Positions 27,661 to 53,376 of a stretch of DNA of 64,000 bases are shown piece after piece. Every line of letters starts with the position of its first letter. Position 1 is the stretch's first letter. Made by a program: the position numbers and the translations under genes. Under the pieces are notes generated by a model, which saw nothing but the letters and a program-made list of their open reading frames with translations, ran no database searches and had not been told where the DNA came from. The stretch comes from Duganella sp. BJB480 (GTDB lineage Bacteria > Pseudomonadota > Gammaproteobacteria > Burkholderiales > Burkholderiaceae_D), in assembly GCA_003416985.1 (NCBI GenBank), contig QVIN01000003.1, positions 62,001 to 126,000 on the forward strand, read 5' to 3'.

Positions 27661-29232
27661 ATGCTGCCGCCAGCGGTCACCATCCTGCCGGTCGGCCCGG
27701 CGGCCGGCGTCGGCGGCGCCGCGCCGGTGGGCGACGGCCGCCAAGCGGCCTTCCAGCGCGCGCTGCAAAGCCTGGTCGGACAACCTGTCACGGCCGAGGT
27801 GCTGTCCAAGTACAACGACGGCAGCTTCCTGGTCCGCGTGGCCGACAACGCCGTGCGCATGATGCTGCCGCCGGAAGTGCAGGTGGGCGCCGACGTGCCG
27901 CTGACCGTGCTCACGGCCAGCCCCCGCCCCACCTTCCAGCTCGCCAACAACACCCCCGGCAGCTCCGCCACGGTGGTCTACGGCGACACCGCCGAAGCCG
28001 ACCCCGGCCTCTATTCCCCCACCCTGCCGTCGCAGGACGCGCCGGCCACCGTGCCGGGCTCGCCCCGGCAACCCGCCGGCAGCGCGCCGGGCCAGCCGGC
28101 CACGCCGGGCGCGGCCGATGCCGAAGCCGGCGTGCCGGCGGAAGCGGACGGCGTGCCGGGCCAGGCCAAGCCGGGCACACCGGCAGCCGGCAACGCGGCC
28201 AGCCCGGCCACGGGTGCCACGCAAGCCGGCGCCGCAGCCGCAGCCGGGGCGGCCGGCGCGCAGGCCGCCGATCAGCAGGCCGCAACATCGGGCCGTCCCA
28301 CCACCACCCCGCAGGCGGCCGGCGCCGCGACACCCGCCGCGAATCTGCCGGGCGCGGCAGCGACACCGGCCGCTGCCGGCGCTGCAGCCCAGGCCAGCGC
28401 CGCAGCCCAGGCCGGCGCGGCCGCGGCAGCCAGCGGCGGCGCGGTCCCGGCCGAAGCCGTCAAGCCGCAAAGCATGGCCGCCACGCTGCTGGGCAAGGCG
28501 CCGCTGACGCCCGCCAACGAACTGCCCGACCTCGACCCCAACACGCCGCAAGCCACGCTGAGCAACACGGCCCGTCTGCTGACCACCGTGCTCAGCGCGG
28601 CGCAGAGCGGCGGCGCCGCGCAACTGGCGCTGGTCGGCAAGAGCGCGCTGTTCGGCAACGCCGCGCCGGCCACCGAACAGCTGGCGCAAAAGCTGCAGGA
28701 CACCATCTCGCAGAGCGGCCTGTTCTACGAATCGCATGTCACCGAATGGGCCAAGGGCGAGCGCACCCTGCCCGAGCTGATGCGCGAGCCGCAGATGCAG
28801 CGCATGCTGCAAGGCGGCGAGAACGCGGCGCGCGCCGCCGCCAACGGTCCCGACCTGAGCGCGGCGCAGCTGATCAACCAGCAACTGCACACGCACGAGC
28901 AGGGCCGGGTGCAGTGGAACGGCGAGGCCTGGCCGGGCCAGCCGATGCAGTGGGAGATCCGCCGTGAACAGCGCGAAGGCCGCCAGGACCAGGGCGGCGC
29001 CGACGGCGAGCCCGAGCAGATCTGGCGCAGCGGCGTGCGCTTCCGCTTCCCGATGCTGGGGGCGGTGTCGGCGTCGGTCACGCTGATCGGCGGGCAGGTG
29101 CATATCCAGGTGCAAGCCGACGACGGCGGCACCGCCGACACCTTGCGCGCCTACGCCGGCCAGCTGGAACAGGCGATGGAGGCGGCCGGCGCGCCGTTGT
29201 CGTCGCTGACCATCGCGCAGGAATCGCCATGA
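27661..29232 (+). CDS. Second FliK-like hook-length control protein
   Basis: A 523-residue protein with a FliK-type layout: a structured start (about 1-100), a long Ala/Pro/Gly-rich middle (about 125-280) and a folded C-terminal domain (about 400-523). The end resembles the FliK specificity-switch domain in composition and position (VHIQVQADDGGTADTLRAYAGQLEQAM). The canonical fliK lies elsewhere in the cluster (36446-38107). This copy overlaps the orphan FlhB-like gene by four bases (ATGA), suggesting a matched pair acting on export switching. Confidence 0.7.
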   Translation: MLPPAVTILPVGPAAGVGGAAPVGDGRQAAFQRALQSLVGQPVTAEVLSKYNDGSFLVRVADNAVRMMLPPEVQVGADVPLTVLTASPRPTFQLANNTPGSSATVVYGDTAEADPGLYSPTLPSQDAPATVPGSPRQPAGSAPGQPATPGAADAEAGVPAEADGVPGQAKPGTPAAGNAASPATGATQAGAAAAAGAAGAQAADQQAATSGRPTTTPQAAGAATPAANLPGAAATPAAAGAAAQASAAAQAGAAAAASGGAVPAEAVKPQSMAATLLGKAPLTPANELPDLDPNTPQATLSNTARLLTTVLSAAQSGGAAQLALVGKSALFGNAAPATEQLAQKLQDTISQSGLFYESHVTEWAKGERTLPELMREPQMQRMLQGGENAARAAANGPDLSAAQLINQQLHTHEQGRVQWNGEAWPGQPMQWEIRREQREGRQDQGGADGEPEQIWRSGVRFRFPMLGAVSASVTLIGGQVHIQVQADDGGTADTLRAYAGQLEQAMEAAGAPLSSLTIAQESP

Positions 29233-36445: not shown

Positions 36446-38107
36446 ATGCAAACCCAGAATCTCCAAATTCCCACTCTGAACGCCAATGCGGTGGCGGCGC
36501 CCAAGGTCAACCTGAATCTGAACGCCGGCGGCGGCGACAATTCCTTCCAGCGCGCCCTGTCGCGCGAGATGGACCAGCGCCAGGCCGGCAACGCCAGCAA
36601 CGGCCCCGCCATCGTCGCCAAGGCGCCCGAGCGCCCCGCCGCCTCGCGCCCGTCCGCGTCCAAGCCGGCCGAGCAGGCCAAGCCCGCCCAATCCCAGAAC
36701 CAGCAGGCCGACGCGGCCGACAACCAGGCCGTCGCCAAAAATGACAGCCAGCCGGCCCCCGCCGCGCCCGCCACGGCCAAGAACAACAGCAAGGACAGCA
36801 ACGCCAGCGCGGACGAGTCCGCAGCCAGCGCGGCCAGCGATGCGCAAGCCGCCGCCCAGGCCGATCCGGTGGCCGACATGCTGGCCCTGGTGGCCGCCTT
36901 CAATCAACCGGCGGCGCCGGCCGCCGCACCGGTCGCCAGCGCCGCCGACGCCTCGGCAGGCAGTGCGGCCGGCGCCGTGAGCGCCGCCGCCCTGGCCGCC
37001 GAAGCCGCCGCTGCGGCAGCCGCGACAGCCGCCTCCGCAGCAGCAGCCGGCGCCGACGACACGGCCACCACCGCCGTGGACGCCAACGCCACCGCCGCCC
37101 TGCCCGCCGCCGCCACGCTGGATGCCGACACGCTCAAAACCGCTCAGGCCGGCGCGGATGCCAATGCCGCCGCCGATTTCAAGGCCGCCCTGACGAAAGC
37201 CGGCTCGGCCGCGCAAACCGCCGCCGATGCGGCCGCAGCAGCAGCCAAGGCCGCAGCCGCAGCCAGCACCACGGCAGGCGCCACCGTCGCCGCTGCGGCC
37301 ACTGCGGTCAAGTCCGCCGCCACCGACAACAAGCCGGTCAGCGCGGTGCCGGACGGCCCGATCGTCGACACCCTGTCCGACACCACAGACGCCGCGCCCG
37401 CCACGCCGGCCGAACCGGCCGCCCCGATCAAGGTTGGCCCCGGCATGGAAAAACCGGCCGACGTGGCCCACGCCACGCCGCGCCAGTCCGATCCGCTGCA
37501 GCCCGTGTTCAACGGCAAGAGCACCCAGCCGACCGAGGCGGCGCCGGTGCTGAAGGAAGCCGCCCCGGCCATCACCATCGCGCCGAGCGCGCAATCGGCG
37601 CTGGAGGCGGCCAAGGCGGCCGTCACCGCCGTGCCGACGGACAAGCTCAGCAGCCGCGTCGGCACCCAGGCCTGGGACCAGCAACTGGGTCAAAAGATCA
37701 TCTTCATGGCGGCCGGCGGCGAGCAGAGCGCCACCATGGAATTGAATCCGCCCGATCTCGGCCCGCTGCAGGTCGTGCTGAGCGTGAACAAGGACCAGGC
37801 CACCGCAGCCTTCAGCTCGGCCACGCCGGAAGTGCGCCAGGCCCTCGAAGCGGCCATGCCCAAGCTGCGCGAGATGATGAGCGAGGCCGGCATCCAGCTG
37901 GGCAACGCCACCGTCTCGGCCGGCATGTCTGACCAAAACAACGGCTTCAACCAGCAGGCCGGCTCGGCGCAGCACAGCGGCGGCCACGGCGGCGGCGGCC
38001 GTTCCGGCGCCAGCTTCGGCGGCGACAGCGGCGGCAGCGTGGACGTGCCGCGCAGCGCCCCGCCGGCGCGCCGCGTGCCGGCCGGCGCGGTCGACACCTT
38101 CGCCTGA
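36446..38107 (+). CDS. fliK: Flagellar hook-length control protein FliK
   Basis: A 553-residue secreted ruler that measures the hook and switches export specificity. The N-terminal and middle parts are extremely Ala-rich and disordered (about 60-390). The C-terminal FliK domain (about 410-510) is well conserved: MELNPPDLGPLQVVLSV, then AFSSATPEVRQALEAAMPKL. It ends in a Gly/Ser-rich tail. It is the canonical copy by position between fliJ and fliL. A terminator follows the gene. Confidence 0.93.
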   Translation: MQTQNLQIPTLNANAVAAPKVNLNLNAGGGDNSFQRALSREMDQRQAGNASNGPAIVAKAPERPAASRPSASKPAEQAKPAQSQNQQADAADNQAVAKNDSQPAPAAPATAKNNSKDSNASADESAASAASDAQAAAQADPVADMLALVAAFNQPAAPAAAPVASAADASAGSAAGAVSAAALAAEAAAAAAATAASAAAAGADDTATTAVDANATAALPAAATLDADTLKTAQAGADANAAADFKAALTKAGSAAQTAADAAAAAAKAAAAASTTAGATVAAAATAVKSAATDNKPVSAVPDGPIVDTLSDTTDAAPATPAEPAAPIKVGPGMEKPADVAHATPRQSDPLQPVFNGKSTQPTEAAPVLKEAAPAITIAPSAQSALEAAKAAVTAVPTDKLSSRVGTQAWDQQLGQKIIFMAAGGEQSATMELNPPDLGPLQVVLSVNKDQATAAFSSATPEVRQALEAAMPKLREMMSEAGIQLGNATVSAGMSDQNNGFNQQAGSAQHSGGHGGGGRSGASFGGDSGGSVDVPRSAPPARRVPAGAVDTFA

Positions 38108-42130: not shown

Positions 42131-42973
42131 ATGATTTCGTTCTCCACTGCCGATATCAACCTGTGGATCGCCGGATTGCTGTGGCCGCTGACCCGCATCC
42201 TGGGCTTGCTGGCGGCGTCGCCGCTGTTCGGCAACTCCAGCGTGCCGGCCAGCGTCAAGATCAGCCTGGGCGTGTTGCTGGCCATGGTGGTGGCGCCGGC
42301 CGTGCCGCCGCTGCCGGCCGCCGACCCAACCTCGCTGGCAGGCCTGCTGATCGTGCTGCAGGAAATGCTGGTCGGGCTGGCGATGGGCTTCAGCATCCGC
42401 ATCGTGTTCGCGGCGGTGGAGATGGCGGGAGAAATCTCCAGTTTGACCATGGGCCTGGGGTTCGCGACGTTTTTCGACCCCAACACCCAAGGCCGCTCGT
42501 CGGCGATCAGCCAGTTCCTGGCGCTGGTGGCGACCATGATGTTTTTGGCGGTCAACGCCCACCTGGTGCTGCTGTCGGCGCTGGTGGAGAGTTTTTACAC
42601 GCTGCCGGTGTCGGCCTCGCCGGTGTACGGCGGCGGCTTCAAGCAGCTGGCCGACTGGGGCGGCAGGATTTTCAGCACCGGTGTGCAGCTGTCGCTGCCC
42701 ATCGTGGCCGCTTTACTGATTACCAACGTCGCGCTGGGCATCCTGACACGCGCGGCGCCGCAACTGAATTTGTTTGGGATCGGATTTCCGATCACCTTAG
42801 GTGTAGGTTTGCTGGTCATCGCCACGACACTCCCGTACTTGGCGACGCCCGTGCAAAACCTGTTTTTGGATGGCATAGAACGCGCGCGGCTGATGCCGCG
42901 GACGTGGTCGCAGCGCCCCCCGACGGCTCCGCCGGCAAGCTTGCCGGTTAGACCTCCCGGGCCGCGGCCATAG
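42131..42973 (+). CDS. fliR: Flagellar export gate protein FliR
   Basis: A 280-residue integral membrane protein with about six hydrophobic segments and the conserved stretches LWPLTRILGLLAASPLFG, GFSIRIVFAAVEMAGEISS and PQLNLFGIGFPITLGVGLL. The final 20 or so residues are Pro-rich. It is the last fli gene of the series. The giant repeat-protein gene begins 85 bases downstream on the same strand, and flhB does not follow as it does in some genomes. Confidence 0.96.
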   Translation: MISFSTADINLWIAGLLWPLTRILGLLAASPLFGNSSVPASVKISLGVLLAMVVAPAVPPLPAADPTSLAGLLIVLQEMLVGLAMGFSIRIVFAAVEMAGEISSLTMGLGFATFFDPNTQGRSSAISQFLALVATMMFLAVNAHLVLLSALVESFYTLPVSASPVYGGGFKQLADWGGRIFSTGVQLSLPIVAALLITNVALGILTRAAPQLNLFGIGFPITLGVGLLVIATTLPYLATPVQNLFLDGIERARLMPRTWSQRPPTAPPASLPVRPPGPRP

Positions 42974-43058
42974 CGAAATTCAATAGCCAGCCAGTGATTT
43001 TTGGTTTCCATGAGGCAATTATGCGCGTATCATGGAGGCTCCCCGGGAGAACAACGCA

Positions 43059-46000
43059 ATGACTTCGATCGTTACCAGTTTCACAACCGACCAGATCATC
43101 AGTCTCACGACTGCGCAGATCGGCCTGTTCACGACCGAAGACATGCAGGCGCTCAGCTCCGACCAGGTCGGCGTGATGAGCTCGGCCCAGGTGCGCGCCA
43201 TCAGCACGCTGCAACTGAACTTCCTGAGCACCGACGGCCTGGCCGGCCTGTCCACCGACAACGTCCCCACCCTGACCCAGCAGCAGGTCGGCGCGCTCAA
43301 CAGCGACCTGATCGCCGCCCTCAGCACCAGCCAGATGGTGGCGCTCAGCACCCGCGAGATGCAGGCGCTGAACAGCCGTCAGCTCAACCTGCTGAACTCC
43401 GACCAGGTCGCCGCGCTGGAAACGGTGGACCTGCGCGCGCTGTCGACCCTCCAGCTGGGCGCGCTCGGCTCGGACCAGGTCGCCAGCCTCACCAGCGACC
43501 AGCTCGGTTCGCTGGCCACCCAGCAATTGCGCGCCCTCAGCACCAGCGCCGTGCAGGCGATCGGCACCGACCAGGTGCTGTCGCTGGCCACCGCCCTGCT
43601 GGGGCAGCTGACCACCAGCCAGCTCAACGCCCTGACGCAAGGCCAGCTGGCCGCCATCACCACCGACCAGATCGCCGGCCTGAGCTCGCTGCAGGTGAGC
43701 CTGCTGGCGACCGCCTCGCTGGCCAGCCTCGGCAGCGACCAGGTGGGCGCGCTGGAGACCCGCGACTTGATCGGCCTGAGCAGCGGCCAGGTGGCCGCCC
43801 TGGGCGCGCTGCAACTGGCCGGCCTGAACAGCGACCAGCTGCACGCGCTGCGCAGCAACGAGATCGCCGCCCTCACCACCGACCAGCTGCCGCTGCTGGG
43901 CACGGCCCAGCTCAATGCGCTGAGCTCGCTGGCACCGCTCAATTCCGCCCAGGTCGGCGCGCTCACCACCGAACAGGTCAACGCGCTGACCACCCGCACC
44001 ATCGCCGCGCTCGGCAGCGCCCAGCTGGCCGCGCTCAACGCCGGCCAGGTGCAGGCGCTGGGCAGCGACCAGCTCATCGCGCTGTCGACCGCCCAGGTGG
44101 CGGCCCTGAGCAGCGCCGTGCTGGCCGCGCTGACCACCGACCAGATGCCGTTCATCGAAACGCGCGACATCGGCGCGCTGACCCCGGCGCAGATCCGCGC
44201 CCTCGGCAGCGACCAGCTGGTGGCGCTCACCACCGACCAGATCGCCGCGCTGAGCACGGCCGCCGAGGCCGCCCTGCTGCCCGAGCAGCTGGCCGCGCTG
44301 GGCACCGGCCAGCTCAACGCGCTGCGCAGCGTGGCCCCGCTGAGCACGCTGCAAATCCAGGCGCTCGGCACCGACCAGATCGCCGGCCTGGACAGCAAGG
44401 CCATCGTCAATCTCAGCAGCGTGCAACTGGCCGCGCTGACCGCCGCCCAGGTGCAGGCGCTGGGCAGCGACCAGATCATCGAGATGACGGCGCTCCAGTA
44501 CAGCAACCTGAGCAGCAACATGCTCAACGCCCTCTCCAGCATCCAGATCGGCCTGATCGAGACGCGCGACATCGCCGCGCTGCGCGCCGCGCAGATCGCC
44601 CACCTGGCGACCGACCAGCTGGTGGTGCTGCTGAGCGACCAGTTCGTCGCGCTCAGCAGCAGCGCCATCGGCGCCCTCAGCACCGACCAGATCAGCGTGC
44701 TGACCACCGAGCAGCTGAACGCGCTGTCGACGCTGGCCGGCCTGTCGGGCAACCAGATCGCCTCCTTCACCACCGCGCAGCTGAGCTCGCTGTCGCTGCA
44801 CAACCTGGGCACGCTGGCCAGCGGCCAGCTGCGGGTGCTGACCTCGGACCAGATCCAGTCGCTGACCACCGACCAGATCATCGCGCTGAGCGCGGCCCAG
44901 TTCCGCGGCCTGAGCACGGCCGCCATCGCGGCGCTGAGCACCGAGCAGGTGGCCGCCATCGAGACCGCCGACCTGGCCGGCCTCAACACCCAGCAGGTCA
45001 ACAAGCTGGGCACGGCCCAGATCGCCGCGCTGAGCACCGACCAGATGTTCGCGCTGACCTCGGCCGAGACGGCCGCGCTGGGCACCGACCAGGTGCGGGC
45101 CCTGGACAGCGCCCAGATCGACGCGCTGCGCTTCCTGACCGCGCTGACCACGCGCCAGATCCGCGCGCTCACCACCGACCAGATCGGCAACATCACCACC
45201 ATCGACCTGGCCAGCCTGACCACCCGCCAGTTCACCGGCTTCACCAGCGACCAGCTGCAGGCCTTGACCAGCGACCAGATCGTCGCGCTGAACTCGGCCC
45301 AGCTGGTGGCGCTGAGCACCGGCGCCATGGCCGTGCTGTCGACCGCCGCCATCGCCGCCATCGAGACGCGCGACATCCGCGCGCTGCGCACCGCCCAGAT
45401 CGCCCAGCTGAGCACCGACCAGATCATGGCGCTGACCACCGGCCAGCTGGCCGCGTTCACCACCGGCGAGATCCGCGCGCTGACGTCCGACCAGCTGTCC
45501 GTGCTCACCAGCGACCAGATCGTCGCGCTGTCGACGCTGGGCCCGCTGCTCACCAGGCAGATCGCCGGCCTGACCAGCGACCAGATCATGCAGCTGACCA
45601 CGGACGACTTCGCGGCGCTGCAGACCAACCAGCTGGCCGCCTTCAACACCGACCAGGCCGCCGCGATCAGCAGCGACCAGGTGGTGGCGATGTCGACCGC
45701 GCAGGTGCGCGCGCTCAGCGCGGCCGCCATCGCCGCGCTCGGCACCGACCGCATCGCCGCGCTGCGCAACGCCGACCTGGTCGCGCTGAGCACGCGCCAG
45801 GTGGCCGCGCTCACCACCGCCCAACTGGCCGCGCTGAGCACGCAGCAGCTGCGGGTGCTCACCACCGCCGAGATCGCCGCGCTGACGCTGGGCCAGATCG
45901 CCGGCCTGAGCAACGGCCAGATCGACGCCCTGGCCACGCTGGCCGCGCTGAGCACCGCGCAACTGGCCGGCTTCAGCACCAACCAGCTGGCCGCGCTGAA

Positions 46001-49000
46001 CCTGCCCGACCTGCGCTCGCTGAGCTCGAAACAAATCCACGCCCTCGGCACCGACCAGCTGGTGGCGCTGACCGTCGGCCAGATCGCCGGCATGACCACG
46101 GCCCAGCTGCGCGGCATCGCCGCCGGCGACATCGGCGCGCTCACCACCGACCAGATCGCCGCGCTGACCAACACCGAGCTGGCCTCGCTGAGCACCAAGC
46201 AGCTGGCCGGCCTGGGCACCGACCAGATCGTCGTGCTCAGCACGCTCCAGATCGCCGCGCTGACCACCCAGGAGATCGCCGCCCTCAGCACCGACCAGAA
46301 GGCCGTGCTGAGCAGCGACCAGATCGCCGCGCTGAGCTCGCTGGCCAGCTTCACGCCGGCCGCCATCGCCGCCCTCACGACCACCCAGATCGCCTCGCTG
46401 CCGCCGGCCGTCCTGGCCGGCCTGACCACGCGCCAGATCACCGCGCTGACCTCCGACCAGATCGCCGTGCTGACCACCGACGAACTGGCGGCGCTGTCGA
46501 CCGCCCAGTTCCGCGCCCTCACCACCGACCAGATCGCCGCGCTGACGACCGGCCAGGTGCCGGCCATTCCGCTGGCCGACGTGCGCGCGCTGTCGACCCG
46601 CCAGGTGGCGGCGCTGACCACCGACCAGCTGAGCATGCTGACGCCGTCGCAGTTCGGCGCCCTGAGCACCGTCGACATCGCCAACCTCAGCACGCAGCAG
46701 ATCGCCGCGCTGTCGCTGGCCCAGGTGGCCAGCTTCGCCTCGCTGGCGCCGCTGACCAGCAAGCAGATCGCCGCCCTCACGACCACCCAGATCGCCAGCC
46801 TGGCGCTGGCCAAGATCGCCACGCTCAAGACCAGCCAGATCGCCGGCCTGACCAGCGTCCAGGTGGGCGCGCTCACCACCGACGAGATCGTCGCGCTGAG
46901 CACCGCCCAGGTGCGCAGCCTGAACGCCGCCACCCTGGCCGCGCTGTCGCCGGCGCAGGTGGCCGCGATCGAGGTGGTGGACATCGCCGCGCTGGGCACC
47001 AACCAGGTCACCGCGCTGTCGAGCGACCAGATGGCCGCGCTGACCGCCGGCCAGTTCGCCGCGCTCAGCACCCGCACCCTGGCCAGCCTGACCACCGACC
47101 AGGTGGCCGGCCTGCTGCTGGCCCAGATCGACAGCCTGGCCTCGCTGGCGCCGCTGACCACCAACCAGGTCGGCGCGCTCACGACCGACCAGATCGTCAG
47201 CCTCGGCCTGGCCCAGATCGCCACGCTGGGCAGCCGCCAGCTCAACGCGCTGGCCAGCGCCCAGCTGCAGGCGCTCACCGCCGCCCAGATCGTCGCGCTG
47301 GAGACCGCGCAAATCCGCGGCCTGAGCGCGGCCACGCTGAACACGCTCTCCACCGACCAGATCGTCGCGATCGAACTGGTCGACATCGCCGCGCTGCGCA
47401 CCGCCCAGGTGGCCGGGCTGAACACCACCCAGGTGGCCGCGCTCACGCTGGCCCAGCTCGGCGCCTTCACCTCGCAGGAGATCGCCGCGCTGACCACCGT
47501 CCAGCTGGGCGCGCTCACCACCGACCAGTTCGCCGCATTGGGCAGCCTCGCCGGCCTCAACACGCGCCAGATCAGCGGCCTGTCGAGCGACCAGATCATC
47601 GCGCTGACGCCGGCCCAGGTGGCCGCGCTCAAGACCTCGCAGATCGCCGCCCTCAGCAGCACCCAGATCCGCTACCTCACCAGCGACCAGATCCCCGTGC
47701 TCAGCACGGCCCAGGTGAGGGCGCTGTCGGCCGCCGTCATCGCCGCGCTGACCACCGCCCAGATCATGGACCTGAGCGGGCCCGACCTGGCCGCGCTCAA
47801 GACCAGCCAGCTGATGGCGCTGACCAGCGACCAGCTGGGCGCGCTGTCGCTGACCCAGTACGGCGCCCTGATCAGCAGCGAGGTGGCCGCGCTGACCACC
47901 AGCCAGCTGAGCGTCCTGACCAGCGACCAGATCGCCGCGCTGGCCAACCTGGCGGTGCTGACCACCAACCAGATCGGCAGCCTGACCACCGCCCAGCTGG
48001 CCACGCTGTCGGTGCCGCGCTTCGTCTCGCTGACCACGCGCCAGCTGGGCGCGCTGGGCAGCCGCCAGGTGGGCGGCATCAACACCGACCAGATCATGGC
48101 GCTGTCGACCGCGCAGATCCGCGCCCTCAACACCAGCCTGCTGACCGCGCTCAGCAGCGACCAGCTGGAGGCCATCCAGGCGCCGGACTTCGGCGCCCTG
48201 ACCACCAGCCAGCTGCGCGCGCTGACCACGGCGCAGATGCAGGCGCTGCTGACCGACCAGCTGCACGCGCTGAGCTCGGCCGGCATCGCCGCCTTCACCC
48301 AGTCCCAGCTGGCCGCGCTCAGCAACGCCCAGGCCGCCGCGCTGGGCAACCTGGCCGACTACTCGACGCTGCAGATCGCCGCCATGTCGACCAGCCGCAT
48401 CGCCGGCCTGTCGCTGCTGGACATCGACCTGCTGAGCACGCGCCAGATCGGCGCCCTGTCGTCGACCCAGGTGTCGGTGCTGAGCAGCGACCAGATCATC
48501 GAGCTCAGCGGCGCCCAGGTGGGCGCGCTCAGCGCCGCCGCGCTGGCCGGCCTGAGCACCGACCAGATCACCTACATCGAGGCGGGCGACATCGCCGCGC
48601 TCAAGTCGGCCCAGTTGCAGGCGCTCTCCAGCGCCCAGCTGCAGGCGCTCACCAGCGACCAGATCGGCGCGCTGACCACGCGCGAGGTGGCCGCGCTCAA
48701 GGCCAGCCAGATCCCCCTGCTGACCGCCAGCCAGCTGGCCAACCTGGCCGGCATCGCCGGCCTGACCTCGGCGCAGATCCGCGCGCTGGGCTCCGAGCAG
48801 ATCGCCGCGCTGCTGCCGGACCAGATCGCCGCGCTGCGCACCGCCCAGATCGCCGCGCTGAGCAACACCCAGATCGTCAACCTGAACAGCGACCAGATCA
48901 TCGCGCTGACCACCGCCGACATGCTGGCGCTGAACACGCGCAGCCTGGCCGCGCTGACCCCGGCCCAGATCGTCGCGATCGAGCTGGCCGACGTCGCCGC

Positions 49001-51851
49001 GCTGCGCTCGGCCCAGCTGTCGTCGCTGACCACCGACCAGCTGGCCGCGCTGACCACCGACCAGGTCGCCGTGCTGGGCAGCAACGCGATCAACGGCCTG
49101 ACCGTCAACCAGGTGCGCGCGCTCACCACCGACCAGATCGTCAACCTGACGGCCGGGCAGGTGGCCGCCCTGTCGACCCGGACCATCGCCACGCTCAATT
49201 CCGACCAGTTCGCCGCGATCGAAGTGGGCGACCTGGCCGCGCTGCGCACCCAGCAGATCCGCGCGCTGACCTCCAGCGAACTGATCAACATGACCACCAA
49301 CCAGCTGACCGCGCTCAGCACCGCGCAGATCGCCGCGCTGAGCACCGCCCAGCTGAACTACCTGACGCCGGACCAGTTCCTGCTGCTCGGCTCGCTCGGT
49401 TCGCTCAACACCAACCAGGTGTCGACGCTGACCACCGACCGCATCCAGGCCCTGACCGACGACCAGCTCGGCGCGCTGAGCACCGCCCAGCTGACCGCGC
49501 TGACCAGCCGCCAGCTGCAAGCGTTCAACACCCACCAGATCCAGCAACTGACGGTGGCGCAGTGGCGCGCGCTGAGCACCTCGGCGCTGCGCGGCCTGTA
49601 CAGCGACCAGATCACCGCGATCGAGGTGGAGGACCTGTCGGGCCTGAAGACCAGCCAGATCGCCTCGCTGAGCACGCTGCAAATCTCGCAGCTCACCCTC
49701 GACCAGTTCGGCGCGCTCACCACGGCCGAGGTGGCCTCGCTGACCGCAGCCCAGGCCAAGGCCCTGACCACCGACCAGCTCAACGGCCTGGCCACGCTGG
49801 CCGGTCTGACCACGCTGCAGGTCGGCGCGCTGACCACCGACCAGCTGGTCGCCCTCAACGGCGACCACATGGCGACGCTGCGCACCGCGCAGATCGCCGC
49901 GCTGACCAAGAACCAGCTGCAAGCCTTCACCACCGACCAGGTGGTCAACCTGAGCACCGCGCAGGTGCGCGCGCTGAGCGTGGCCGCGCTGGCCGGCCTG
50001 AGCACCGACCAGATCCAGCTCATCTCGCTCGACGACATCCCGGCGCTCAGCAGCATGCAGTTGAACGCGCTGACCAAGGCCCAGTTCACGGCCCTGACGC
50101 TGGGCCAGATCGCCAGCCTGGCGACGCTGCAGATCGCCTCGCTGAGCCCGGCCGACATCACCGCCCTGAGCACCCAGCAGATCAACACGCTGAGCACGCT
50201 GGGCGTGCTCAACGCCGGCCAGGTGGCGGCGCTGACCTCCGACCAGCTGGGCGGCATCGACGTCGACCACTTCGCCACCTTGCGCTCGGCGCAGATCGCC
50301 GCGTTCACGCTGCGGCAGATGGCGCTGCTGACCACCGACCAGCTGGGCGCGCTGAGCACCCAGCAGGCGCGCGGCCTGAACATGACCATCCTGGGCACCG
50401 ACCAGATCGCCGCGCTGAACGTCGACGCGGTGGCCGCGCTGACCACGGCGCAGCTGCAAACGCTCAAGACCAGCCAGATCGGCGCCCTCACCGGCCCCCA
50501 GTTCGCCGCGCTGTCGACCCGTTCGCTGGCCTCGCTGGCGGTCGCGCAGATCCGCGGCCTGAGCACCGACCAGCTGACCGCGCTCGGTTCGCTGAGCGCC
50601 TTCACCGCCAACCAGATCACCGGCTTCAGCTCCGACCAGATCGTCGGCCTGTCGGCCGACATGATCAACAGCCTGCGCACCGCGCAGATCGCCGCGTTCG
50701 GCTCGACCCAGTCGCTGGGCCTGACCACCACGCAGATCTCCTCGCTCGCCCCGACGCTGGTGGCATCGCTGTCGGTGGCGGCGATCAACGCGCTGAGCGC
50801 CGACCAGATCCACGCGCTCGACGGCAACGACATCGTGGCGCTGAAGACCGCGCAGCTGTCGGGCCTGAGCTCGACCACCATCACCAACTTCTCGCTCGAC
50901 CAGGTGGCCGCGTTCTCGACCGCGCAGATCCGTTCGCTCAAGGGCACCCAGATCAAGGCCTTCACGCTGGAGCAGATCGCCGCCTTGACGGTGGGCGAGA
51001 TTTCCGCGCTGGCCTCGACCCAGGTGTGCGCGCTGACCGCCGAGCAGCGCGCCGCGCTGACCGCCGATCAGCTGGCGGTGCTGCCGGCCGGCAGCCCGGT
51101 GATCCTCGACCTGAACGGCGACGGCATCGCCACGCTGGGCATCGAAGCCGGCGTCAAGTTCGACCTGTACGCCGACGGCGAGCGCATCAACACAGGCTGG
51201 GTCGGCCGCGGCGACGGCCTGCTCGCGCTGGACCGCAACCACGACGGCCTGATCAACGACGGCAGCGAGCTGTTCGGCACCGCCACCAATCTGGCCGCCG
51301 GCGGCAAGGCCAGCGACGGCTTCGCCGCGCTGGGCGACCTGGACAGCAACCACGACGGCGTGGTCGACAGCAAGGACGCGCAGTTCGGCGACCTGCGGGT
51401 GTGGATCGACGCCAACGCGGACGGCGTCAGCCAGGAAGGCGAGCTCAAGACATTGAACGCGCTGGGCATCGCCAGCCTGACGGTCCAGGCCGACAAGGTA
51501 AGCGAGCTCGACAACAACAACTGGATCGGCCGGCGCTCCAGCTACACCGGCACCGACGGCGTGGCGCACCAGGCGGCCGACGTCTGGTTCCTGGCCAGCC
51601 GGGCCGCGCAGACCAGCGCGCTGACGCAGGCGATCGCCGGCTACGGCCAGCAAGCCGTCGCGGGCGACAGCGGCGGAGGTGGACAGCTGACGCAACCGGC
51701 CGCGCCCGGCCTGGCCGGCCATGTCGCCGCGCTGACCGAGCAGCTCAAGCAATACGACGCCACCACTAGCCTGAGCGGCAGCGCAACGTCCGGCGAGCAA
51801 GACTGGTTCCGCAAGCCCACCACCGCAACCGGCCTGCTCGCCGCCAAATAA
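43059..51851 (+). CDS. Giant octapeptide super-repeat protein with calcium-binding C-terminal domain
   Basis: About 2,930 residues. Residues ~5-2675 are some 330 octapeptides of pattern [S/T][T/S]xQ[I/L/V]xxL, for example TTDQIAAL. From residue 121 they form a 134-residue unit: an octad with Asp/Glu at its fourth position (ETRDIAAL type), six ordinary octads, one hexapeptide (such as STLAGL), and nine octads. Residues ~2684-2830 carry DLNGDG and three EF-hand-like loops (DRNHDGLIND, DSNHDGVVDS, DANADGVSQEGE), a domain common in secreted adhesins and type I-exported proteins. There is no signal peptide, membrane helix or RTX nonapeptide. ATG 43059 is preferred (GGGAG upstream) over ATG 43032. 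Its function is unknown; a surface or secreted structural protein is an inference. It sits between fliR and flgL. Confidence 0.85.
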   Translation: MTSIVTSFTTDQIISLTTAQIGLFTTEDMQALSSDQVGVMSSAQVRAISTLQLNFLSTDGLAGLSTDNVPTLTQQQVGALNSDLIAALSTSQMVALSTREMQALNSRQLNLLNSDQVAALETVDLRALSTLQLGALGSDQVASLTSDQLGSLATQQLRALSTSAVQAIGTDQVLSLATALLGQLTTSQLNALTQGQLAAITTDQIAGLSSLQVSLLATASLASLGSDQVGALETRDLIGLSSGQVAALGALQLAGLNSDQLHALRSNEIAALTTDQLPLLGTAQLNALSSLAPLNSAQVGALTTEQVNALTTRTIAALGSAQLAALNAGQVQALGSDQLIALSTAQVAALSSAVLAALTTDQMPFIETRDIGALTPAQIRALGSDQLVALTTDQIAALSTAAEAALLPEQLAALGTGQLNALRSVAPLSTLQIQALGTDQIAGLDSKAIVNLSSVQLAALTAAQVQALGSDQIIEMTALQYSNLSSNMLNALSSIQIGLIETRDIAALRAAQIAHLATDQLVVLLSDQFVALSSSAIGALSTDQISVLTTEQLNALSTLAGLSGNQIASFTTAQLSSLSLHNLGTLASGQLRVLTSDQIQSLTTDQIIALSAAQFRGLSTAAIAALSTEQVAAIETADLAGLNTQQVNKLGTAQIAALSTDQMFALTSAETAALGTDQVRALDSAQIDALRFLTALTTRQIRALTTDQIGNITTIDLASLTTRQFTGFTSDQLQALTSDQIVALNSAQLVALSTGAMAVLSTAAIAAIETRDIRALRTAQIAQLSTDQIMALTTGQLAAFTTGEIRALTSDQLSVLTSDQIVALSTLGPLLTRQIAGLTSDQIMQLTTDDFAALQTNQLAAFNTDQAAAISSDQVVAMSTAQVRALSAAAIAALGTDRIAALRNADLVALSTRQVAALTTAQLAALSTQQLRVLTTAEIAALTLGQIAGLSNGQIDALATLAALSTAQLAGFSTNQLAALNLPDLRSLSSKQIHALGTDQLVALTVGQIAGMTTAQLRGIAAGDIGALTTDQIAALTNTELASLSTKQLAGLGTDQIVVLSTLQIAALTTQEIAALSTDQKAVLSSDQIAALSSLASFTPAAIAALTTTQIASLPPAVLAGLTTRQITALTSDQIAVLTTDELAALSTAQFRALTTDQIAALTTGQVPAIPLADVRALSTRQVAALTTDQLSMLTPSQFGALSTVDIANLSTQQIAALSLAQVASFASLAPLTSKQIAALTTTQIASLALAKIATLKTSQIAGLTSVQVGALTTDEIVALSTAQVRSLNAATLAALSPAQVAAIEVVDIAALGTNQVTALSSDQMAALTAGQFAALSTRTLASLTTDQVAGLLLAQIDSLASLAPLTTNQVGALTTDQIVSLGLAQIATLGSRQLNALASAQLQALTAAQIVALETAQIRGLSAATLNTLSTDQIVAIELVDIAALRTAQVAGLNTTQVAALTLAQLGAFTSQEIAALTTVQLGALTTDQFAALGSLAGLNTRQISGLSSDQIIALTPAQVAALKTSQIAALSSTQIRYLTSDQIPVLSTAQVRALSAAVIAALTTAQIMDLSGPDLAALKTSQLMALTSDQLGALSLTQYGALISSEVAALTTSQLSVLTSDQIAALANLAVLTTNQIGSLTTAQLATLSVPRFVSLTTRQLGALGSRQVGGINTDQIMALSTAQIRALNTSLLTALSSDQLEAIQAPDFGALTTSQLRALTTAQMQALLTDQLHALSSAGIAAFTQSQLAALSNAQAAALGNLADYSTLQIAAMSTSRIAGLSLLDIDLLSTRQIGALSSTQVSVLSSDQIIELSGAQVGALSAAALAGLSTDQITYIEAGDIAALKSAQLQALSSAQLQALTSDQIGALTTREVAALKASQIPLLTASQLANLAGIAGLTSAQIRALGSEQIAALLPDQIAALRTAQIAALSNTQIVNLNSDQIIALTTADMLALNTRSLAALTPAQIVAIELADVAALRSAQLSSLTTDQLAALTTDQVAVLGSNAINGLTVNQVRALTTDQIVNLTAGQVAALSTRTIATLNSDQFAAIEVGDLAALRTQQIRALTSSELINMTTNQLTALSTAQIAALSTAQLNYLTPDQFLLLGSLGSLNTNQVSTLTTDRIQALTDDQLGALSTAQLTALTSRQLQAFNTHQIQQLTVAQWRALSTSALRGLYSDQITAIEVEDLSGLKTSQIASLSTLQISQLTLDQFGALTTAEVASLTAAQAKALTTDQLNGLATLAGLTTLQVGALTTDQLVALNGDHMATLRTAQIAALTKNQLQAFTTDQVVNLSTAQVRALSVAALAGLSTDQIQLISLDDIPALSSMQLNALTKAQFTALTLGQIASLATLQIASLSPADITALSTQQINTLSTLGVLNAGQVAALTSDQLGGIDVDHFATLRSAQIAAFTLRQMALLTTDQLGALSTQQARGLNMTILGTDQIAALNVDAVAALTTAQLQTLKTSQIGALTGPQFAALSTRSLASLAVAQIRGLSTDQLTALGSLSAFTANQITGFSSDQIVGLSADMINSLRTAQIAAFGSTQSLGLTTTQISSLAPTLVASLSVAAINALSADQIHALDGNDIVALKTAQLSGLSSTTITNFSLDQVAAFSTAQIRSLKGTQIKAFTLEQIAALTVGEISALASTQVCALTAEQRAALTADQLAVLPAGSPVILDLNGDGIATLGIEAGVKFDLYADGERINTGWVGRGDGLLALDRNHDGLINDGSELFGTATNLAAGGKASDGFAALGDLDSNHDGVVDSKDAQFGDLRVWIDANADGVSQEGELKTLNALGIASLTVQADKVSELDNNNWIGRRSSYTGTDGVAHQAADVWFLASRAAQTSALTQAIAGYGQQAVAGDSGGGGQLTQPAAPGLAGHVAALTEQLKQYDATTSLSGSATSGEQDWFRKPTTATGLLAAK
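43419..51083 (+). repeat. 402-bp higher-order tandem array inside the giant gene
   Basis: Units start at 43755 and then every 402 bases to 48981 (13 complete units). The unit at 48981 is cut to 240 bp. Complete units start at 49221 and 49623; the unit at 50025 is 393 bp; another complete unit starts at 50418; a partial one starts at 50820. The first unit (43419) is 336 bp and lacks the hexapeptide. Each 402-bp unit consists of sixteen 24-bp octads and one 18-bp hexapeptide. Copies have diverged in sequence but not in length. Confidence 0.92.
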
Positions 51852-51852
51852 A

Positions 51853-52028
51853 ATGGGGGCAAGTCCGACATTCGGACACTAAAATTGGGGTCAAGTCTGA
51901 CATTCGGACACGAACTCAGCTGTAGCACGGTGCTACTGCTGAGTTCGTGTCCGAATGTCAGACTTGACCCCAAGGTTGGGGCGCAATGCTACGGTAAAGC
52001 TCGTGTCCGAATGTCAGACTTGACCCCA
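51853..52028. repeat. Cluster of palindromic repeats
   Basis: It contains a degenerate single arm (51853-51880), a near-perfect palindrome (51885-51973: 44-base arms around one central base, one mismatch), and a solo right arm (about 51998-52028). All carry the shared core. The inner sequence of the solo arm (CTACGGTAAAGCTCGTG) resembles the copy at 15759-15850 rather than its neighbour. The cluster lies between the convergent giant gene and flgL. Confidence 0.92.
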
Positions 52029-52051
52029 AAGTTGCTTCCTGGATTGGCCAC

Positions 52052-52088
52052 AAAAAAGCCCCGAGCGCGCAAGCGTCGGGGCTTTTTT
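52052..52088. terminator. Bidirectional terminator downstream of flgL and the giant gene
   Basis: AAAAAAGCCCCGA (52052-52064) pairs perfectly with TCGGGGCTTTTTT (52076-52088) across an 11-base loop. A- and T-runs on the two sides allow termination in both directions, suiting convergent genes. Confidence 0.9.
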
Positions 52089-52113
52089 CATGGCGGCGCC
52101 GCAGGCGCCGGGA

Positions 52114-53376
52114 TCAGGTGATGTAGTTGAACAGCGATAGCCCCGCCAGGCTCTTGAACGATTTCTGCGCCGCGTCCAGCGTGGTCTGCTGCTGCGTGAA
52201 CAGCGAGATCGCCTTCACCGTGTCGACGTCCTGCAAGTCCGACAGCGTGGTGGCGTACTGCAGATTCAAATCGTCGCCGGAACTGTCCAGGTAGTCCAGC
52301 TCCTTCAGCCGCGATCCCACCTCCGACTGGATCGACAGCAGATTGTCGGTGGCGTTGTCGATGTTCATGTGCGCCTGGTTCAGCTTGTTGTTCAGGCTGG
52401 CCTGCCCCGCCGCGCCGTCGCCCGGCGCGCGCAAGGCGGCGATCAGGTCGGTCACCGTGGTGAAGATCGATTGCTTGGTGCTCGGCTGCACCGTGAAGTT
52501 GTCGAGGTCGGCCGGGTCGCCCTTGACGTCGAACTGCACGCCGTCGAAGGTGATGTTCTGCCCGCTGACGTAGGGCTGCGGCACGGCCGGCACCGGCGCC
52601 GGCGGCACCGGTTGGTTCAGCGTCAGGTCGGTGACGGTGTAGGTGGTCACCTTGGGCGTGCCCGGCGTGGCCGGCACCACCTGGAAATCCACCTGGTACT
52701 TGTGGCCGGTCAGCTGGGTCGCGTCCTTGACCGAGCCGGCGCTGATGATGCCCGAACCGCCGCGCGTGAAGTTGGCCGGATCGGCGCCGGTGACGAAGGT
52801 GCCGTTGCCGGTCGCGTTGTTCTCGAACACCGACTCGCCGGAATCGCTGATCGGCAGCTTGCGGGTCGAGCCCACCTGCAGCTCGCGCTGCCCCTGGTCG
52901 CCCTGGTAGGCGGCGCCGGTGGCGGTCTGCGTGAACGGCAGGGTGGTCGACTTGTAGCCGGAGAACACATAGCCGCCCGTACCGTCGGCGGTGTTGGCCT
53001 GGCCCAGCAGGTCGGCCAGACGCCCCTCCAGTTCGGTCGCCAGCGACTCGCGGTCCTTCTGCGTCATGCCGCCGTTGCCGGCGTTGACGGTCAGCGTCTT
53101 GATGTCCTGCAGGATCGAGGTCGAGCTGGCCAGCGCCACCGTCTCCAGCGACAGCGTGCCCTTGGCGTTGGAACGGTTGGTCACCAGCTGGGTGTTGATC
53201 GACTGCGACTGCGTCACTTCCAGCGCGCGCGCGGTGGCGATCGGATCGTCGGCCGCGGTCAGGTTCTTGCGGTTGGTCGCCAGCTGCTGCTGGGTGCGGG
53301 CCAGCGCGGTCTGCAGCGTGCCGATCTGGCCGACACCGACGTCGTAGATCGTCTTGGAACTGATACGCATGGTCAT
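52114..53376 (-). CDS. flgL: Hook-filament junction protein FlgL
   Basis: A 420-residue junction protein between the hook and filament. N-terminal flagellin-like D0/D1 (MRISSKTIYDVGVGQI, NLTAADDPIATARALEV) and a C-terminal helix pair (QTTLDAAQKSFKSLAGLSLF) are conserved. The middle is variable and beta-rich. It is longer than the roughly 300-residue enteric FlgL because of an expanded centre. It is the last gene of the flgB-L series, five bases after flgK. Confidence 0.95.
   Translation of the reverse strand: MTMRISSKTIYDVGVGQIGTLQTALARTQQQLATNRKNLTAADDPIATARALEVTQSQSINTQLVTNRSNAKGTLSLETVALASSTSILQDIKTLTVNAGNGGMTQKDRESLATELEGRLADLLGQANTADGTGGYVFSGYKSTTLPFTQTATGAAYQGDQGQRELQVGSTRKLPISDSGESVFENNATGNGTFVTGADPANFTRGGSGIISAGSVKDATQLTGHKYQVDFQVVPATPGTPKVTTYTVTDLTLNQPVPPAPVPAVPQPYVSGQNITFDGVQFDVKGDPADLDNFTVQPSTKQSIFTTVTDLIAALRAPGDGAAGQASLNNKLNQAHMNIDNATDNLLSIQSEVGSRLKELDYLDSSGDDLNLQYATTLSDLQDVDTVKAISLFTQQQTTLDAAQKSFKSLAGLSLFNYIT

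Follow-up and report, generated by a model that had tools for sequence, protein, structure and literature searches.

The locus considered here raises the question of what a giant protein built from octapeptides is doing between the genes of a flagellar cluster, and of why its octapeptides should be grouped into units of 134 residues. The gene lies in a window of 64,000 nucleotides from Duganella sp. BJB480 (contig QVIN01000003.1, positions 62,001 to 126,000), this window being the whole stretch of DNA that was analysed and the frame of reference for all coordinates given below (Table 1).

Gene layout and the 134-residue unit

The open reading frame runs on the forward strand from 43032 to 51851 and specifies 2,939 amino acids from its first ATG; a start at 43059 is nevertheless the more probable one, as the ATG at 43032 overlaps the -10 hexamer of a promoter-like element and as orthologous proteins align from M[ST][ST]. 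Dynamic-programming tiling of the protein returned 321 octads, 313 of which are distinct, the commonest residues at positions 1 to 8 being Thr/Ser, Thr/Ser, Asp/Ala, Gln, Ile/Leu/Val, Ala, Ala and Leu. The [S/T][T/S]xQ octad pattern reported in the initial annotation is thus real, although the count of approximately 330 octads given there is not reproduced. The overall order is that of 36 octads, a repeated module of one hexapeptide followed by 16 octads, one block of 26 octads, a unit bearing a pentapeptide and a final 20 octads.

Sixteen octads and one hexapeptide make up the 134-residue unit, and a count from hexapeptide to hexapeptide gives 15 exact units and one of 131 residues, while the sixteen exact 402-bp units originally proposed are recovered by a hand count in which the intervals run between the octads bearing Asp or Glu. 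The strict super-repeat which had been claimed was confirmed for the 15 exact units: the window protein's own units share 45% of their residues when in register as compared to 36-37% at any other octad rotation, and the aligned units have an entropy of 191.5 bits as compared to 222.5 +/- 1.4 bits when the octad order is shuffled (500 shuffles). Position-specific features were compared over 149 distinct units, obtained as exact three-unit runs from up to 15 orthologous proteins. Octad 10 mostly reads ExxD, with Asp at position 4 in 91% and Glu in 4% of the 149 units; the acidic residue noted at this position in one octad per unit is present in all 15 own units (as Glu in one), and the preceding octad, also as noted, often ends in Ile (75% of the 149 units). 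Octads 3, 8 and 14 mostly lack Gln at position 4 (Gln in 15, 4 and 2% of units, respectively), and element 17 is the hexapeptide.

The pairwise identity between own units is 37-57%, the same plan was found in 14 of 14 fetched orthologs, in which the number of units varies and some hexapeptides have 5 or 7 residues, and three near relatives show no insertion or deletion in the 2,675-residue repeat region, gaps being encountered beyond alignment position 2,870. These three observations support the earlier proposal that the length of the unit is held by selection and not by recent copying.

An antisense open reading frame of 2,950 amino acids (42948-51800, reverse strand) was rejected as an artefact, since it spans the whole gene in only two of 15 orthologs, among which the longest open stretch of this frame ranges from 769 to 2,947 codons; it looks like a by-product of the GC-rich octad codons. 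By eye, a GTGTCCGAATGTCAGACTTGACCCC-like element recurs 3' of the giant gene (51849-52095) in both direct and inverted orientation, with one tandem copy, and beyond these copies a terminator-like hairpin lies in the gap between the convergent gene pair.

Table 1. Features of the giant gene and its immediate neighbours (positions within the window)
Feature	Position	Strand	Details or basis
fliR, upstream neighbour	42131..42973	+	Pfam Bac_export_1
Promoter-like element	43003..43039	+	TTTCCA 43005-43010, 17 bases, TATCAT 43028-43033; alignment of 15 orthologs
Giant gene	43059..51851	+	2,930 aa from MTSIV
Leading block, 36 octads	43059..43922	+	tiling
First hexapeptide, SSLAPL	43923..43940	+	tiling
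12 consecutive 134-residue units, 402 bp each	43941..48764	+	tiling, unit alignment
10 additional octads, no hexapeptide (a block of 26 when the following 16 are included)	48765..49004	+	
3 more 134-residue units	49005..50210	+	tiling
131-residue unit, likewise of 17 elements (7 octads, pentapeptide, 8 octads, hexapeptide)	50211..50603	+	
Last 20 octads	50604..51083	+	tiling
FrpC-like Ca2+-dependent self-processing domain, Ser-Pro for Asp-Pro	51096..51596	+	6sjw_A, E 2.5e-35
C-terminal tail ...GLLAAK, likely type I secretion signal	51597..51848	+	
flgL-like gene, convergent downstream	52114..53376	-	place beside flgK and translation

Coil periodicity and predicted fold

With an octad or a hexapeptide counted as one element, the periodogram of the window protein has its top peak at 5.00/17, with a power of 88.0 as compared to at most 29.8 in 300 shuffles. 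A 17-element unit will itself put power on multiples of 1/17, and the test is therefore which multiple wins. Summed periodograms were also calculated for 20 uninterrupted octad arrays from paralogs, where no 17-element unit is imposed; these arrays (18 for Asp at position 3) were picked by us as long unbroken runs from the paralogs on a contig of the same genome and from 11 or 10 named loci. Ten of the 20 have their top peak at 0.292-0.296 per octad. In a further seven this peak is among the five highest, the top one lying at 0.114-0.12, 0.186 or 0.408-0.412, which we read as aliased harmonics of 0.294, and three arrays, namely that of L080 and the second one from each of L089 and L095, depart from this pattern. 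A frequency of 0.294 is 5/17, equivalent to 3.4 octads, or 27.2 residues, per coil. For Asp at position 3, a peak at 0.293-0.296 rises above the 95% level of the shuffles in 14 of 18 arrays, which are related and not independent, and the remaining four do not fit. A turn of approximately 5.6 octads, or three turns to the unit, deduced from the spacing of the Gln-less octads, was considered and dropped, as the periodograms gave 3.4; at 3.4 octads per coil, 0.176 is therefore the fourth harmonic.

Within the unit, Asp at position 3 holds 0.82 of its variance at k=5 in the own units (p 0.0001) and 0.83 across all 149 units, and is the only one of nine single features to peak there, the other eight failing to do so; the pooled-feature test is modest (p 0.010 for own units and 0.024 for all) and gives p 0.085 under another feature scaling. 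When arranged by coil phase 5j/17, the percentage of Asp at position 3 runs 3, 5, 0, 4, 2, 11, 35, 44, 71, 71, 69, 55, 68, 40, 6, 8, a single hump which would place a stripe of Asp along one face. As the periodograms and the Asp phase both point to 5/17, the 134-residue unit may be read as 17 elements, the last of them cut to six residues, that together form five coils of 26.8 residues.

The AlphaFold2 model of three units (48 octads) contains 47 helices of at least four residues, none of which falls in the three hexapeptides, and no strand, with a mean pLDDT of 94.7 and a pTM of 0.79; the input consisted of 56 of 78 selected three-unit rows, from 111, and since rows free of gaps and in matching register were chosen, the confidence of the model may be raised. 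The predicted fold is one short helix per octad, wound as a screw, in agreement with the solenoid of short helices first put forward, and the disorder which had been named as the contrary outcome was not returned. The hexapeptide, annotated as a slight break in the solenoid, is indeed non-helical in the model, but would be better read as the 17th element of the five-coil period with two residues trimmed than as a mere break. Each octad would accommodate Ser or Thr at the start of its helix and Gln at position 4, and winding at about 3.4 octads per coil, a figure taken from the sequence periodicity, would bring the pattern back after 17 elements and five coils, hence 134 residues once the last element is trimmed to six. 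With a coil rise of about 9-10 Angstrom, the approximately 339 elements would form some 100 coils and a rod of the order of 100 nm.

Other members of the family appear to obey the same arithmetic. The flagellar-type variants 2[6]13[6] and 7[5]8[6] likewise total 17 elements, and periods of 217 and 139 residues found elsewhere in the family fit the 5/17 ratio too. Layouts of 27 octads plus 1 residue, of 7+7+3 octads plus 3, of 24 octads plus 1 and of 10 octads seem to represent 8, 5, 7 and 3 coils, respectively, the same mismatch being closed differently in each. On balance we believe that the alpha-screw has a gear ratio of about 3.4 octads per coil for which subfamilies have chosen near-integer solutions (134 or 139 residues as 17/5, and 217 residues as eight coils), with one face gaining or losing one or two residues. 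If this is true, the register should nearly recur after 3, 7, 10, 17, 24 or 27 octads.

The repeat family itself is already known, as Pfam PF20080 (ALTTAQ_rpt), contrary to the first impression that no described family was involved: this model scores 1,602 bits as compared to a cut-off of 26.4 bits and matches 97 stretches along the repeat part. It has 38 positions, however, and the label is silent on the 17-element, five-coil period, the trimmed element and the flagellar locus; what appears to be new here is the reason proposed for the 134-residue unit. The octad pattern is also shared by HeliScrew4 (PDB 9zem), which a profile of the repeat matches without gaps over approximately 100 residues (E 4.1e-26) and which contains octads such as LTPEQIAA, but which is just 120 residues long and is compared here by sequence alone. 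No paper on ALTTAQ, PF20080 or HeliScrew was found in the literature searched, and among the matches listed for neighbouring terms nothing in the titles or the starts of the abstracts concerned the giant gene or the octad repeat.

Neither Foldseek nor VIA returned a clear fold relative of the three-unit model, scores being weak. Mesothelin was the sole recurring match with a Foldseek probability above 0.9 among the 50 of 452 matches listed (8cx3_B, probability 1.00, with a weak E of 7e-4); the absence of HeliScrew4 from these 50 excludes nothing. The available part of the mesothelin report describes 24 short helices in a nine-layered right-handed coil (PMC10035497), and both mesothelin and the ARM/HEAT solenoids share with the giant protein, as predicted, a solenoid of short helices.

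C-terminal domain and candidate export route

Residues 2689-2855 of the giant protein match the FrpC self-processing module (6sjw_A) over 167 residues with an E of 2.5e-35; the initial annotation mentioned neither this domain nor the flagellar setting of the gene. According to the available part of PMC7078468, FrpC (PDB 6sjw, 6sjx) is cut at the Asp414-Pro415 bond by way of the Asp side chain. In a hand mapping onto the positions given there, the Ca2+ ligands of four EF-hand-like sites are kept in the giant protein (with Asn for D421), whereas Thr replaces Asp478 of the fifth site and Ser-Pro replaces Asp414-Pro415; owing to this replacement of the scissile Asp by Ser, cleavage and cross-linking by the FrpC route would not be expected. 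The module further differs from FrpC in that it closes a rod of repeats for which no RTX repeats were reported, and RTX nonapeptides (PF00353) gave no match in the giant protein at E up to 1 in a Pfam scan.

Ser precedes this Pro in 15 of 15 orthologs. A survey of named loci returned at least 542 relatives, of which the best 80 were kept, corresponding to 79 loci; in these the residue preceding Pro is Ser in 45 and Thr in 34, 73 of the loci being read with a pattern allowing Ser, Thr or Asp and six (four of them flagellar) with a looser pattern. Among FrpC-like proteins (120 of 218 listed), 126 motif sites carry Asp in 20 cases, Ser in 44, Pro in 27, Ala in 17, Thr in 10 and other residues in 8, and 30 of the 120 proteins have no motif match. 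One protein in this listed set, P0041, combines ALTTAQ repeats and RTX repeats with PF26745, the accession that marks other FrpC-like hits. The AlphaFold2 model of the C-terminal domain and tail is poor, with 179 of 546 residues under pLDDT 50. The protein ends in G-x-L-A-...K/R in 15 of 15 orthologs and in three of five paralogs from the same genome; four flagellar-type loci that are more distant (L069, L071, L072 and L077) lack this motif or carry a changed form of it.

Those five paralogs are open frames of 3,314, 2,692, 2,007, 2,592 and 1,092 codons on another contig, C5 (L021-L026). One is located approximately 1.4 kb from a gene for an ABC transporter with a C39-like domain and an HlyD gene, two are within 25 kb of the transporter and two are about 63-66 kb away; the next most similar transporter encoded by this genome shares 34% identity with it. 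The interval from the first paralog to the transporter also contains three genes for GT41-like (O-GlcNAc-transferase-like) glycosyltransferases, and the Ser/Thr-rich rods may be glycosylated. An ABC gene of the same type, with no flagellar genes, occurs in 29 of the 79 named loci (the best 80 of at least 542 relatives). In genomes of the genus the ABC gene is found in 54 of 60, including 38 of 38 with the giant gene and 14 of 19 which have fliR and lack the giant gene, counts that are not corrected for kinship. As a separate observation, in the Pseudomonas members L089, L095 and L108 the octads form uninterrupted arrays of 356 or 496, the C-terminus is of another kind, and nothing closer than a distant (25%) ABC match lies in the neighbourhood.

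No secretion genes adjoin the giant gene, which has flagellar genes on both sides; transporter genes beside a substrate gene were found for the C5 paralog. The giant protein begins with repeats and no hydrophobic leader is visible by eye. From these features of the protein and its paralogs we infer export by a type I secretion system: the chain would exit unfolded through the system encoded beside the paralogs. In type I systems the C-terminus exits first, and the FrpC-like Ca2+ domain would fold outside as a cap and thereby start the folding of the chain.

Flagellar locus, repeat evolution and likely role

The flgL and flgK genes converge on the giant gene from downstream, and flagellin and fliD genes are also present within the window. 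Two FliK-type hook-length open reading frames (Flg_hook; 27661-29232 and 36446-38107, forward strand) were noted in this one flagellar cluster. The giant gene directly follows fliR in 14 of 14 fetched orthologs, these being the 14 best non-own matches, and FlgL matches lie 76-215 bases 3' of it in ten and approximately 2.3 kb away in two; in the last two (L035 and L038) FlgL is about 5 and 8 kb further on, as seen in the named copies L066 and L049, so that in four orthologs the giant gene is separated from flgL by other DNA of 2 to 8 kb. A close fliR (E 6e-85 or better) is present in 57 of 60 sampled genomes of the genus, and the giant gene follows it in 38 of these 57 (the window, the 14 orthologs and 23 of 42 tested). 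Of the 19 giant-less genomes, 18 have flgL within 4 kb of fliR, and an empty fliR-flgL site exists since three of them (L164, L178 and L180) have flgL within 100 bases of the fliR match; in four others (L167, L168, L169 and L184) 2.3-2.7 kb of other DNA was observed between fliR and flgL. In the survey of named loci (the best 80 of at least 542 relatives), 35 of 79 are of the flagellar type, 31 of which were parsed; the hosts among the matches listed are Rugamonas, Duganella, Pseudoduganella, Massilia and Oxalobacteraceae without genus, and the closest named match listed is from Rugamonas sp. A1-17 (93% over its best segment), on which basis the source of the window would probably be a Rugamonas.

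The TTTCCA-N17-TATCAT element is conserved with its flanks in 15 orthologs, and no second match was found in the own genome, where a search at up to 3 mismatches gave one match, together suggesting by resemblance that the giant gene has its own promoter.

Taken with the predicted screw, these data lead us to favour, as the probable explanation, an alpha-solenoid rod of the cell surface or matrix which is exported by a type I system, is adhesin-like and winds at about 3.4 octads per coil. Its most likely job would be that of a long adhesin-like rod, encoded in a flagellar locus yet under a promoter of its own. The constancy of the position after fliR in 38 of 57 genomes and the flagellar neighbourhood would also be compatible with a structural protein exported or assembled with the flagellum, such as a sheath, tether or ruler, but we consider this unlikely: the gene has its own promoter-like element, the flagellar genes persist without it as 18 of 19 giant-less genomes retain flgL within 4 kb of fliR, the C-terminal domain and tail, like the paralogs, speak for type I export, and the paralogs are situated on a different contig.

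The manner in which the repeats evolve bears on a second alternative. For two of the three near relatives the identity across the full-length protein is 88 and 79%, and dN/dS in the repeats is 0.61-0.69 in the three near pairs, two of which gave 0.71 and 0.63 when a slightly shorter stretch was taken, as compared to 0.06-0.18 for FliR, FliP, FlgL and FlgK in two near pairs with similar dS; two more distant pairs, with gaps, gave 0.43 and 0.93. When expressed as dN over repeat dS, octad position 3 has values of 1.23-1.47 and position 6 of 0.87-1.01, position 4 being at 0.06-0.09 and position 8 at 0.17-0.26. All of these ratios were obtained by a counting method on a gene with a GC3 of 0.977 and are rough. 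Positions 1, 3 and 6, with dN over repeat dS of about 0.8-1.5, are taken as exposed, and the scaffold and register appear to be fixed with some octad positions evolving fast.

Such values at positions 1, 3 and 6, a repeat dN/dS of 0.61-0.69 and a variable number of units (9-19 exact units in the 31 parsed flagellar-type named proteins, from the best 80 of at least 542 relatives) would be expected of an elastic spring or space-filler, for which any suitable screw works and the surface drifts near-neutrally. We regard this as improbable, because the Asp stripe is kept across 149 units and special residues are kept at octads 3, 8, 10 and 14. In the surface or matrix rod which we prefer, the Asp stripe would mark one face, positions 1, 3 and 6 would change fast, and Gln at position 4, the residue at position 8 and element length would be held.

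An LRR-like beta solenoid or a disordered chain, to which HMMER cross-matches to LRR proteins might point, is very improbable given the AlphaFold2 helices at a mean pLDDT of 94.7 without strand and an 8-residue step with Gln at position 4 that the LRR consensus does not fit. The cross-matches to LRR, CAAP1, EndoS LRR and a lanthipeptide leader were set aside as composition matches because AlphaFold2 shows helices, although those to CAAP1, EndoS LRR and the leader exceed curated cut-offs.

At this locus a giant gene has kept a single place in the flagellar cluster; the repeats of near relatives show no insertions or deletions while some positions change at about the silent-site rate, and the FrpC-like module lacks the residue needed for the clip-and-link chemistry. 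The gear ratio, if correct, means that super-repeats across the family would follow from geometry and that the Asp-marked face would be the working surface of the rod. For a family that is otherwise only a Pfam label in the literature searched, it would provide a rule linking sequence period to solenoid geometry, thereby allowing coil, face and length to be predicted from sequence for giant bacterial exoproteins.
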